Assembly (NCBI GenBank): GCA_017938765.1
Contig: JAGBAX010000027.1
Coordinates: 1-64,000 of the forward strand
DNA: 64,000 nt
Source of the DNA: Alistipes sp.
GTDB taxonomy: Bacteria > Bacteroidota > Bacteroidia > Bacteroidales > Rikenellaceae
Direction: 5' to 3'
Shown here: one piece after another, positions 3,854 to 30,538 of the stretch
Layout: every line of letters begins with the position of its first letter
Position numbering within the stretch: position 1 is the first letter of the stretch
Program-made: the position numbers and the translations under genes
Notes under the pieces: generated by a model
What the model was told of the DNA's origin: nothing
Seen by the model: the letters and a program-made list of their open reading frames with translations, nothing else
Database searches by the model: none

Positions 3854-5161
3854 CTACTCCCATTCAATTGTAGCGTTTGGCTTTGGCGACATATCGTAGC
3901 AGACACGGTTTACATTCTTAACCTCGGCAAGAATGCGGTCTGTGATACGGCAGAGAATATCCCAATCCACGCGCTCAATAGTCGCTGTCATAGCGTCTAC
4001 GGTATTCACGGCGCGAATGATTACTGGATACTCAAATGAGCGAGCATTGTCTCTAACACCTACGCTCTTGAAGTCAGGTACAATGGTAAAGTACTGCCAA
4101 ACCTTCTTGTCAAGGCCTGCCTTTGCAAACTCCTCGCGAAGAATAGCATCAGACTCGCGCACAGCCTCCAATCGCTCACGCGTAATAGCACCCAAGCAGC
4201 GAACACCAAGTCCTGGGCCTGGGAATGGCTGACGGTATACCATCTCATATGGCAGACCAAGCTCAAGACCGCAAGCGCGTACCTCATCCTTAAAGAGCTG
4301 ACGCAGTGGCTCTACAAGCTCAAACTGCAGGTCGTCTGGAAGACCTCCTACATTGTGGTGAGACTTAACCATCTTGGCTGTCTTAGTTCCACTCTCAACG
4401 ATGTCTGGATAGATTGTACCCTGACCAAGGAAGTCAATACCATCAAGTTTGCGTGCCTCCTCCTCAAATACGCGGATAAACTCGCCACCGATAATCTTAC
4501 GCTTCTGCTCTGGGTCCTCAACACCCTCAAGCTTTGTAAGGAAGCGCTCTGTAGCATCTACATAGACAAGGTTTGCGCTGAGCTGGTTGCTGAATACCTC
4601 AACAACATTCTCACTCTCGCCCTTACGCATAAGGCCGTGATTTACGTGTACGCAGACAAGGTTATCGCCAATAGCCTTCAGAAGAAGAGCCGCAACTACA
4701 GAGGAGTCTACACCACCAGAGAGGGCAAGAAGCACCTTTCTATTGCCAACCTGACGGCGGATAAGCTCTACTTGGTCAGCTACGAAGTTGGTCATATTCC
4801 AGTTAGCCTCGGCCTTGCAAACATCAAATACAAAGCCCTTTACAGCCTCCTTAATAGCCTCAATGTTGTCGGTAAACTGTGGTAAGTTTACCTCACACTT
4901 TGCCTTGCTGTGACCCGCTGCAATAACAGGGAAGCCAGCATTATAAATCTCTGGAAGAACATCAATCTCAACGCCGTCAATAACATTGTTTGGACCTCCG
5001 TTGATAATCACACCCTTAACATTTGGCAGAGCCTTGAGCTCAGCAGCGGTAATGTCGTGTGGGTAAATCTCGCTATAAACACCGAGGTCACGAATGGCGC
5101 GGGCGAGGACAGTATTCTCGTGGCTGCCCAAGTCCAAAATAACAATCATATCTTGCTTCAT
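3854..5161 (-). CDS. guaA: GMP synthase with degenerate glutaminase domain
   Basis: Converts XMP to GMP with ATP; standard GuaA takes the amino group from glutamine. The ATP-pyrophosphatase part is complete: PP-loop SGGVDSS at 148-154, later GQGTIYPD, SHHNVGG, RQPFPGPGLGVR, and the C-terminal dimerisation domain ending PKPNATIEWE. The N-terminal class I amidotransferase domain is about 110 residues instead of about 200. It keeps the opening (VILDLGS, IINGGPN), but the nucleophile elbow, normally like GVCYGMQ, reads AAGHSKA (81-87), and the segment holding the catalytic His and Glu is missing. The 435-residue protein is about 90 shorter than usual. I infer an ammonia-dependent enzyme, unless a separate glutaminase subunit exists elsewhere. 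It lies 32 bases after guaB in one operon. The frame is uninterrupted and the remaining N-terminal part reads as real protein, so it does not look like decay. Confidence 0.93.
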   Translation of the reverse strand: MKQDMIVILDLGSHENTVLARAIRDLGVYSEIYPHDITAAELKALPNVKGVIINGGPNNVIDGVEIDVLPEIYNAGFPVIAAGHSKAKCEVNLPQFTDNIEAIKEAVKGFVFDVCKAEANWNMTNFVADQVELIRRQVGNRKVLLALSGGVDSSVVAALLLKAIGDNLVCVHVNHGLMRKGESENVVEVFSNQLSANLVYVDATERFLTKLEGVEDPEQKRKIIGGEFIRVFEEEARKLDGIDFLGQGTIYPDIVESGTKTAKMVKSHHNVGGLPDDLQFELVEPLRQLFKDEVRACGLELGLPYEMVYRQPFPGPGLGVRCLGAITRERLEAVRESDAILREEFAKAGLDKKVWQYFTIVPDFKSVGVRDNARSFEYPVIIRAVNTVDAMTATIERVDWDILCRITDRILAEVKNVNRVCYDMSPKPNATIEWE

Positions 5162-5193
5162 ATCCTAAGTATGTATTAAAACCTAATACTCTT

Positions 5194-29200: not shown

Positions 29201-29454
29201 GCATCTGGACGCTCATATCGGATAATCTTTGCTACATACTCCAGTTTGAGCGGCTCCATATAGACCTTGTCGGCGATAAATGTGTCGGTCATAATTGTTG
29301 CAGGATTTGAGTTTACGAGGATAACCTCATAACCCTCCTCCTTCAGTGCAAGACACGCCTGTGTACCTGCATAGTCAAACTCAGCTGCCTGACCAATAAC
29401 AATCGGGCCAGAGCCGATAACCATCACTTTCTTGATATCTGTTCTCTTAGGCAT
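26263..29454 (-). CDS. carB: carbamoyl phosphate synthetase large subunit
   Basis: Makes carbamoyl phosphate from bicarbonate, ammonia and two ATP. The 1063 residues contain the two homologous ATP-grasp halves ([20 protein letters not shown] near residue 15; [20 protein letters not shown] near 555), each with EVNPR, and a C-terminal MGS-like allosteric region. No missing segment was noticed. Its partner CarA, overlapping by 8 bases, has lost the glutaminase Cys, so this complex probably uses ammonia directly. Confidence 0.98.
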   Translation of the reverse strand: [1063 protein letters not shown]

Positions 29455-30538
29455 TGCTACTTCCCTCCATCAGTTTAATGAATTTATCAAAGAGATAGGT
29501 GCTGTCATTTGCTCCTGGAGCACCCTCAGGATGATACTGCACAGAGAAGAGCTTGTCCTTACGACACTCAACTCCAGCGACCATATTATCTAAAACACCG
29601 CTATGGCTAACCTCAAGACCTGTACCCTCAAGGCTCTCTCGGCTAACGGTATACTCAAGGCTCATACCTGTGGTCTCAATGCGATTTGTTATCATATTAC
29701 GCACTGGACGGCTAACGCTTCTATTTCCATTCTGCTGATGCTCACACTTCGCACCGTATGCAAGAGCAATAAGTAGATGACCAAGACTGATGCCCATCAT
29801 TGGCAGAGTGCCCTTCAGCTCCTTAATAAGCTCTACAACCTCTGGTACGCAGTATGGCGAACCTGGGCCGTTTGAAATCAGTATGCCGTGTGGGTTAAAT
29901 GCGCGAATCTCCTCTACAGGTGTGTTGTAAGGCACAATAATCACATTGCAACCACGACGATTTAGCTCCTCAATGATTGTTCGCTTTACGCCGCAGTCTA
30001 CAACTACAACGTCGTACTTATGATTTGGTGTACGAGAGTACCAACGCTTGCGGCAGCTAACCTTTGCTACTACATTGCTCTGCTCTGGAGTATTCTCAAT
30101 AAGCTCTAAAGCCTGCTCAACAGTAACATCTGCATCTACGATAGCTGCTCGCATAGCTCCCTTATCACGCAATGTGAGTGTAAGAGCGCGGGTATCAATG
30201 CCGCAAATGCCAGGTATTGAGTTCTCCTCCATAATCTCAGCAAGGGTCTTGGTAAAGCGGAAGTTGCTCGGCATTGTACAGTACTCACGCACTACAAGTG
30301 CACCAAGAGCTAACTGCTTAGACTCAAAGTCCTCGTCTGTAATACCATAGTTACCAATTACTGGATAGGTCATAACAACCATCTGGTCCGCATATCCAGG
30401 ATCTGAAAGAATCTCCTGATAGCCCACTACAGAGGTGTTGAAAACGATGTCGCAGACAGTAGGACGGTTGGCACCAAAGCCATAACCGTAAAACTGCTCA
30501 CCGCTCTGCAAAACTAATTTTTTGTCGGGTTGTGTCAT
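29447..30538 (-). CDS. carA: carbamoyl phosphate synthetase small subunit, Cys-to-Ser
   Basis: In the normal enzyme this subunit hydrolyses glutamine and channels ammonia to CarB. The 363-residue protein has both CarA domains: the N-terminal part with GYQEILSDPGYADQMVVMTYP and the C-terminal class I amidotransferase domain from about 175. The nucleophile motif GICLGHQ reads GISLGHL: Cys is Ser251 (codon AGT) and the following Gln is Leu256. The HPE motif is kept (YHPEGAPG), but the usual GGNHPV region is altered to NGNRSVSRPV. Animal ammonia-dependent CPS I has an analogous Ser replacement. I infer a structural or regulatory subunit without glutaminase activity. It lies between pyrC and carB. 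Confidence 0.95.
   Translation of the reverse strand: MTQPDKKLVLQSGEQFYGYGFGANRPTVCDIVFNTSVVGYQEILSDPGYADQMVVMTYPVIGNYGITDEDFESKQLALGALVVREYCTMPSNFRFTKTLAEIMEENSIPGICGIDTRALTLTLRDKGAMRAAIVDADVTVEQALELIENTPEQSNVVAKVSCRKRWYSRTPNHKYDVVVVDCGVKRTIIEELNRRGCNVIIVPYNTPVEEIRAFNPHGILISNGPGSPYCVPEVVELIKELKGTLPMMGISLGHLLIALAYGAKCEHQQNGNRSVSRPVRNMITNRIETTGMSLEYTVSRESLEGTGLEVSHSGVLDNMVAGVECRKDKLFSVQYHPEGAPGANDSTYLFDKFIKLMEGSSNA

Follow-up and report, generated by a model that had tools for sequence, protein, structure and literature searches.

Altered glutaminase sites in nucleotide-synthesis enzymes of a Rikenellaceae genus suggest a repeated change from glutamine to free ammonia

The amidotransferases of nucleotide synthesis are held to take their nitrogen from glutamine, with free ammonia regarded as a test-tube substitute. 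The closest described systems, as given in the excerpts of the literature drawn on here, are the following: (i) in human carbamoyl-phosphate synthetase (CPS) 1, CPS1, Ser294 replaces the Cys and free ammonia is the donor, the inactive domain being retained and the tunnel position of E. coli Gly293 changed (PMC4655335); (ii) a fish CPS has a glutamine amidotransferase (GATase)-like domain with the same Cys to Ser change and free ammonia as donor (PMC7657897); (iii) single-domain NadE is an ammonia-using NAD synthetase whose use of ammonia is held to be ancestral (PMC3376133); and (iv) the C89A/C113A form of PfGMPS has no glutamine-dependent activity and a lower Km for NH4Cl (PMC9312489). As CPS1 and NadE show, ammonia can serve as the real donor in cells. 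Here, we analyzed a 64,000-nucleotide stretch of an Alistipes sp. genome (Bacteroidales, Rikenellaceae; assembly GCA_017938765.1, contig JAGBAX010000027.1, positions 1 to 64,000), hereafter the window, which encodes a GMP synthetase (GuaA), an amidophosphoribosyltransferase (PurF) and a CPS small subunit (CarA) with altered glutaminase sites. Together with the CTP synthase (PyrG) of the same genome, these enzymes most probably no longer hydrolyse glutamine, and their synthase halves would use free cytoplasmic ammonia. We also lean towards the view that this switch occurred repeatedly in one genus and followed a fixed order from CarA through GuaA and PurF to PyrG, with branch-specific lesions and with GlmS and PurL spared.

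All three lesions that a preceding sequence-only reading had claimed for GuaA, PurF and CarA were found in the DNA where it had placed them. The guaA gene (3854..5161, minus strand) encodes a short form of 435 aa, consisting of a GATase stub followed by an intact ATP pyrophosphatase (ATP-PPase) and C-terminal domain. The stub (residues 1-103; 4853..5161, minus strand) reads AGHSK at the GxCxG elbow; the loss of the nucleophile thus stands, while the missing remainder amounts to about 80 residues rather than the 90 first estimated, as the alignment to PDB 7sbc skips from residue 81 (chain 94) to 104 (chain 196). The Pfam GATase match was confined to residues 7-80 (profile positions 1-76 of 190), and the ATP-PPase and C-terminal models were matched in full. 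Likewise, when compared with the glutamine-hydrolysing GMP synthase class (NF000848), GuaA scored 48 bits against a cut-off of 172 with TIGR00888, the model of a complete class I GATase with Cys-His-Glu (positions 1-74 of 188), and 461 bits over positions 1-310 of 310 with TIGR00884 (ATP-PPase and dimerisation). In purF (11431..12795, plus strand; 454 aa), the class II glutaminase site is disabled and the phosphoribosyltransferase half is intact. The start codon (11431..11433) occupies the Cys1 position with the propeptide absent, and Leu73 (11647..11649) replaces the glutamine-binding Arg; both substitutions were confirmed by a codon recheck and by alignment to B. subtilis 1gph, the local alignment beginning at residue 3 of both proteins. 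PurF therefore lacks the N-terminal catalytic Cys and Arg73 of the TIGR01134 class and still matches the model itself at 508 bits (cut-off 350), with its phosphoribosyltransferase half present. The carA gene (29447..30538, minus strand; 363 aa) has a disabled class I site, with Ser251 (29786..29788, minus strand) aligned to E. coli Cys269 as had been proposed; its best PDB match, 1c30, itself has Ser at this position. Alignment also placed Leu at Gln273, Ser at Asn311 and Glu at Gly313, while the HPE motif was kept; these positions and His353/Glu355 (E. coli numbering) we take to be glutaminase-site residues. CarA nevertheless passes TIGR01368 (393 vs 307 bits) though Cys269, Gln273, Asn311 and Gly313 are absent, so the family name alone would mislead. 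The adjacent carB (26263..29454, minus strand), encoding the large subunit, matched CPS models at 1446-1497 bits, far above cut-off, and the profile matches to GuaA, PurF and CarB domains bear out the earlier statement that the synthetase and transferase halves are intact. The set of three affected enzymes proved incomplete, since PyrG, encoded on another contig (G000:C8:2742-4352, minus strand), is a fourth member: it reads GINLGMH where most relatives read GICLGMQ, with Asn for Cys, and so departs from the GxCLGMQ elbow while still scoring 737 bits with TIGR00337 (cut-off 463). Excerpts of PMC7953260 support the roles given to PurF Cys1 and Arg73, and excerpts of PMC4655335 that given to the CPS Cys.

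Set beside the known systems as excerpted, the window CarA resembles human CPS1 in keeping a GATase-like domain with Ser for Cys and a changed residue at the Gly293 position (Val; many relatives keep Gly or Ala). Unlike it, CPS1 is a vertebrate enzyme of the urea cycle, a fused chain that needs N-acetylglutamate, whereas here a bacterial two-subunit enzyme serves pyrimidine synthesis, and six replacements of its Cys are met with in a single genus (Ser in the window protein and 27 other CarA; other residues in 65, one of them a second copy). In contrast to the ancestral ammonia use held for NadE, glutamine use was lost here, since outgroup CarA keeps the Cys: among 30 Bacteroidales genomes from outside the genus, the residue was retained in 22 of the 22 with a match (one, G040, has Leu for the following Gln), the eight without a match at 1e-40 including B. 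clarus and B. fluxus. The loss of Cys also recalls laboratory glutaminase-dead forms of GMP synthetase and CPS (the PfGMPS mutant; Ser at 269 in 1c30), but in the present case it is natural, affects four enzymes at once and is conserved over many species. Each single change has precedent, and the joint, repeated loss over four nucleotide enzymes may be new; as the sequence-only reading had supposed, no description of it was found in the open-licence literature, which misses most subscription papers and preprints.

The genus was surveyed in 151 genomes, mostly draft assemblies (G000, the window genome, and further G numbers are our handles). At a match threshold of 1e-20, GuaA was short in 55 genomes and long in 80; none had both, and 16 had no match. 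Relatives had either a 435-aa protein with 86-97% identity to the window GuaA or one with about 44-52% identity and a length of about 508 aa or more; identity also decided the class of fragments, with G069, G119, G132, G141 and G170 counted as short, and G143 and the partial G150 as long. CarA was matched in 138 of 151 genomes (reading left aside the fragments from G100 and G163 and a second one from G021), and the 136 primary copies read comprised 44 with Cys and 92 without. When five second copies were included, the 141 proteins had Cys (48), Gly (32), Ser (28), Asp (26), Ala (3), Asn (2) or Glu (2). Two types of PurF were encountered. In the 82 type A proteins read, the Cys1 and Arg positions were occupied by Cys/Arg in 44, Met/Leu in 27, Cys/Leu in 10 and Met/Lys in one; 34 more, none from a short-GuaA genome, were counted as Cys/Arg from the match start alone, including G172, which was fetched and missed by the motif search. 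Type B is distant (about 29-35% identity), starts with MSGFFG or MSGIFG in 8 of 8 read, has no Cys1 and fell below the PurF model cut-off in the one protein scanned (185 vs 350 bits). Type B (L288-L294 and L296 among the fetched loci) was the sole PurF found in about 20 genomes, with 8 read of the 20 so classed. Weak extra PurF matches from G029, G112 and G108 were fetched and found to be GlmS; G003, G006 and G159 also gave further weak PurF matches. For the 55 short-GuaA genomes, the PurF states were Met/Leu in 24, Cys/Leu in 10, type B in 18 and intact in one, with two not found; PurF was thus altered in 52 of the 53 where it was found (42 of these read, 10 assigned to type B by identity).

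PyrG was read in 70 of 120 genomes, which were picked by rank and CarA state and not at random, leaving 43 PyrG of long-GuaA genomes unread. The 70 proteins had Cys (49), Gly (17), Asn (3) or Ser (1) at the elbow, and the 21 without Cys came from short-GuaA genomes (19) or from genomes where GuaA was not found (2). In the 55 short-GuaA genomes, PyrG was absent from 24, non-Cys in 19, and had Cys with Asn for the catalytic His in 5 and both residues in 7, and so was missing or altered at its active site in 48 of 55. By comparison, 3 of the 80 long-GuaA genomes were without PyrG, and of 34 read, 33 had both residues and one had Asn for His. A protein search combined with a family search left 31 genomes of the genus without a CTP synthase, some of them up to 98% complete and 24 of them short-GuaA; the PF06418 search found no PyrG in these 31 and matched 3 of 3 positive controls. 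The PyrG-less genomes, which include G001, G020, G024, G027, G029, G033, G070 and 24 more, may depend on cytidine salvage.

These states suggest a course of events. Cells would live at ammonia high enough to feed the enzymes directly, and if ammonia were sufficient, the glutaminase sites would no longer be maintained; with the nucleophile and other glutaminase residues lost in all four enzymes, the synthase halves would draw free ammonia from the cytoplasm. CarA was probably altered first, as is suggested by a clade of 29 genomes with altered CarA, 26 of which yielded a GuaA, long in every case; PurF in this clade is Cys/Arg in 15 read and 12 taken as such, with 2 not found, and one member (G067) is without PyrG. 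The short GuaA would then have been left alone and PurF altered, and PyrG would finally decay or be lost. The dead glutaminase domains of CarA, PurF and PyrG are most simply explained as retained for structure (fold), subunit contacts or the ammonia path. If true, this would represent a switch of the nitrogen currency of nucleotide synthesis rather than a set of separate losses, with loss of CTP synthase itself as the last step in some branches.

The joint loss that had been proposed for the window is borne out by co-occurrence across the genus, with the reservation that CarA loss also occurs without the others, as in the 29-genome clade. All 52 short-GuaA genomes in which CarA was read lacked its Cys, versus 31 of 70 long-GuaA genomes (Fisher p 7.5e-13), and PyrG was absent from 24 of 55 versus 3 of 80 (p 1.1e-8); these p values, however, ignore kinship, which is the first of several points that weigh against the proposed switch. 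Of six comparisons by independent-pairs tests, five were free of opposite pairs, while CarA vs PyrG had them in some draws; with only 3-4 usable pairs, p < 0.05 was impossible. Many long-GuaA genomes have CarA alone altered. Among short-GuaA genomes, G160 retains both PurF Cys1 and Arg, 10 retain Cys1 with only the Arg altered, and 7 of the 31 PyrG read retain Cys and His. Conversely, in G150, whose GuaA is long, PurF and CarA are both altered and PyrG was not found. The CarA and PyrG trees disagree on the number of origins, and Amt and GltB, considered below, are also missing from most long-GuaA genomes and do not separate the groups. Finally, the window assembly is 87% complete, which bears on the absence of second copies. 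Intact second copies of guaA, purF and carA, whose presence would have spoken against the sequence-only reading, were sought in this assembly and none was found. Rescue by a second copy does exist in the genus: on another branch, G073, G095, G140 and G172 (L283-L286) each encode two CarA, one with Gly for Cys and one with Cys intact, the latter resembling the kind seen elsewhere in the order; no second intact CarA was seen in the window lineage.

The number of origins was examined by phylogeny. In the CarA tree, primary copies show at least 5 changes between Cys and non-Cys. Short-GuaA genomes occupy three or more separate positions that differ in their PurF lesion: Met/Leu in the window clade, type B in a second clade, and Cys/Leu in a third, which also holds the intact G160 (G164 stands apart from this third clade). 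G150 lies inside the window clade on a very long branch. This genome has a partial long GuaA, Met/Lys PurF and Gly CarA; PyrG was not found, and the stretch read held no PurL motif. In the tree of the PyrG synthetase domain, the window clade neighbours the Cys/Leu genomes that have PyrG. Approximately unbiased (AU) tests on this tree rejected both the short-GuaA genomes as one clade (p 1.4e-4; G016, G035 and G116, where GuaA was not found, were treated as short-GuaA here) and the non-Cys PyrG as one clade (p 1.65e-7). At least two origins are thus supported, and a single gene, CarA, would suggest three.

The idea that GuaA was newly broken in this lineage by a fresh truncation does not hold, since the short form is widespread in Bacteroidales. 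At least 572 stretches of named genomes match the short-N-terminus pattern and encode a GuaA relative (length not verified in each), and the 80 of these that were retained align with the short protein from residue 1 to 435 (to 431 in one case), at 88-98% identity to the window GuaA. The form occurs in named Bacteroides, Phocaeicola and others, isolate genomes included. Short and long guaA stand in tandem at 10 of 83 fetched loci, among them P. distasonis, B. clarus, B. fluxus, B. cutis and P. vulgatus (L064, L077, L078, L094, L145), and the Cys and HPE motifs are kept in all ten long copies. Gut Bacteroidales can thus have the short gene beside an intact long one, whereas the window lineage carries the short gene alone. 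The tandem genes are possibly glutamine and ammonia isozymes; in the annotated P. distasonis record, both are named glutamine-hydrolysing GMP synthase. Another of the ten, a record named Subdoligranulum variabile (L066, OY725880.1) that also carries tet(W), encodes a short GuaA of 74.5% identity next to its long GuaA, and provided that this record is rightly named, short GuaA occurs outside Bacteroidales. In the short-GuaA tree, the genus is mixed with Bacteroidaceae and Muribaculaceae and does not form one clade, with low support and long outgroup branches meeting; the distribution may reflect gain, transfer, or tandem pairs that were differentially lost.

Ordinary decay of the pathways toward pseudogenes in a host-dependent salvager of nucleobases is quite unlikely. 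In its favor, the genomes of the genus are small (mostly 1.5-2.5 Mb), 24 of the 55 short-GuaA genomes yielded no PyrG, and stop codons occur in a few of the matches to CarA and PyrG. However, the ratio of nonsynonymous to synonymous substitution rates (dN/dS) of the window guaA, purF and carA and of the genome's pyrG against three relatives was 0.02-0.15 (GATase parts 0.02-0.13), compared with 0.05-0.10 for six intact CarA pairs; the GATase part of one intact CarA pair, G090/G125, gave 0.29 with few synonymous changes. All four genes are under strong purifying selection. Moreover, the short GuaA is 86-97% identical across the genus, the striking changes are located in glutaminase sites, and the window carries long runs of pur and pyr genes, namely purE-L-F-M-N-H-D with folD and purB, and pyrB-E-F-D-K-carB-carA-pyrC, in addition to guaB-guaA (names assigned by eye, except for genes scanned with Pfam or NCBIfam profiles).

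A separate glutaminase or amidase could instead act in trans and channel ammonia to these enzymes, as does the nitrilase-like domain of glutamine-dependent NAD synthetase. A nitrilase-family amidohydrolase is indeed encoded two genes downstream of guaA (2253-3029, minus strand), with a best NCBIfam match of the PRK10438 type (219 bits, under the cut-off of 249), and nitrilase-like glutaminase domains are described for NAD synthetases in the excerpted text of PMC3376133. This neighbor, considered as a partner of guaA, was rejected as not conserved: of the 83 short-guaA loci fetched, just 5 have it, each from a close relative of the window, compared with 25 for guaB (5194..6666, minus strand, directly upstream of guaA in the window). 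A PF00117 search of the window genome retrieved only CarA, PyrG and the GuaA stub, and a PF13522 search yielded nothing beyond GlmS and PurF except a 150-aa frame that fell below cut-off; the window genome thus has no stand-alone class I GATase, stand-alone glutaminases of other families not having been searched for. A single partner would, in addition, need to serve four unlike enzymes, and we regard this explanation as improbable.

It is more doubtful still that the altered sites hydrolyse glutamine by another nucleophile, such as Ser in CarA or Ser2 of PurF after removal of Met1. Ser is among the CarA replacements, and each of the 28 Met-start PurF read has Ser2, as do the eight type B proteins read. 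Against this, none of the 28 retains Arg73, which is replaced by Leu in 27 and by Lys in one, and type B has no Arg in the matching stretch as judged by eye. In relatives, the CarA residue can be Gly, Asp, Ala, Asn or Glu, and 20 of the 21 non-Cys PyrG carry Gly or Asn; such residues are incapable of serving as this nucleophile, and GuaA is without the site altogether. An artefact of assembly or binning, or chance loss in one strain, can be set aside with near certainty even though the assemblies are mostly drafts and the window genome is incomplete, since dozens of genomes that were assembled separately and come from different hosts show the same states, and the short GuaA is found in isolates such as Phocaeicola vulgatus ATCC 8482.

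The nitrogen setting of the genus was examined by searching for the ammonium transporter Amt and for glutamate synthase (GltB). Amt was above cut-off in 3 of 151 genomes, leaving 148 without, compared with 14 of 14 control genomes; none was found in the window genome. Full-strength GltB matches (E < 1e-100) were present in 10 of 151 genomes, not including the window genome, and in 0 of 55 short-GuaA genomes. The family cut-off of glutamate synthase was passed by 106 genomes, nearly all by short, weak matches, that of the window genome lying within guaB. The scarcity of both is consistent with life at high ammonia, but since it is common to most of the genus, it describes the setting and is not proof. 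Glutamine synthetase was detected in 136 of 151 genomes, with two matches in the window genome, so glutamine still can be made.

Use of glutamine appears to persist in other enzymes. PurL (7698..11405, plus strand) is the contrast case in the window, where the earlier claim that its glutaminase is intact was upheld by the presence of GICNGFQ and SHGEG; the PurL motif was seen in 24 of 25 listed loci (of 75), the exception being G150. The further suggestion that glutamine is kept solely for PurL was not sustained, as GlmS on contig 12 of the window genome also retains its site (MCGIVGY, HTRWATHG) and is intact in two further short-GuaA genomes, G029 and G112. GlmS is not known to use free ammonia, and PurL accepts it poorly; if GlmS indeed is unable to use it, this explains why GlmS was spared.

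If free ammonia is used as proposed, it has apparently turned from a substitute into the regular donor in four enzymes, which belong to two unrelated glutaminase classes. Relatives at apparent intermediate stages make the order and cost of the switch testable, and the natural glutaminase-dead enzymes are usable for studies of tunnels and allostery. Automatic names such as glutamine-hydrolysing would be wrong for these proteins, and the altered sites may offer a sequence marker of ammonia-rich niches in gut metagenomes.

The window genome itself is 2.1 Mb in 29 contigs, with the window as contig 21 (G000:C21). Its nearest relatives are metagenome-assembled genomes titled Alistipes sp. or Rikenellaceae bacterium, and many of the titles mention the caecum, colon or rectum of cattle, sheep, goat or deer; likewise, the most similar named genomes with a stated source are mostly from ruminant caecum, colon or rectum. 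Both PurN (13841-14401, by eye) and the formate-dependent PurT (32023-33213, by NCBIfam) are apparently encoded in the window.

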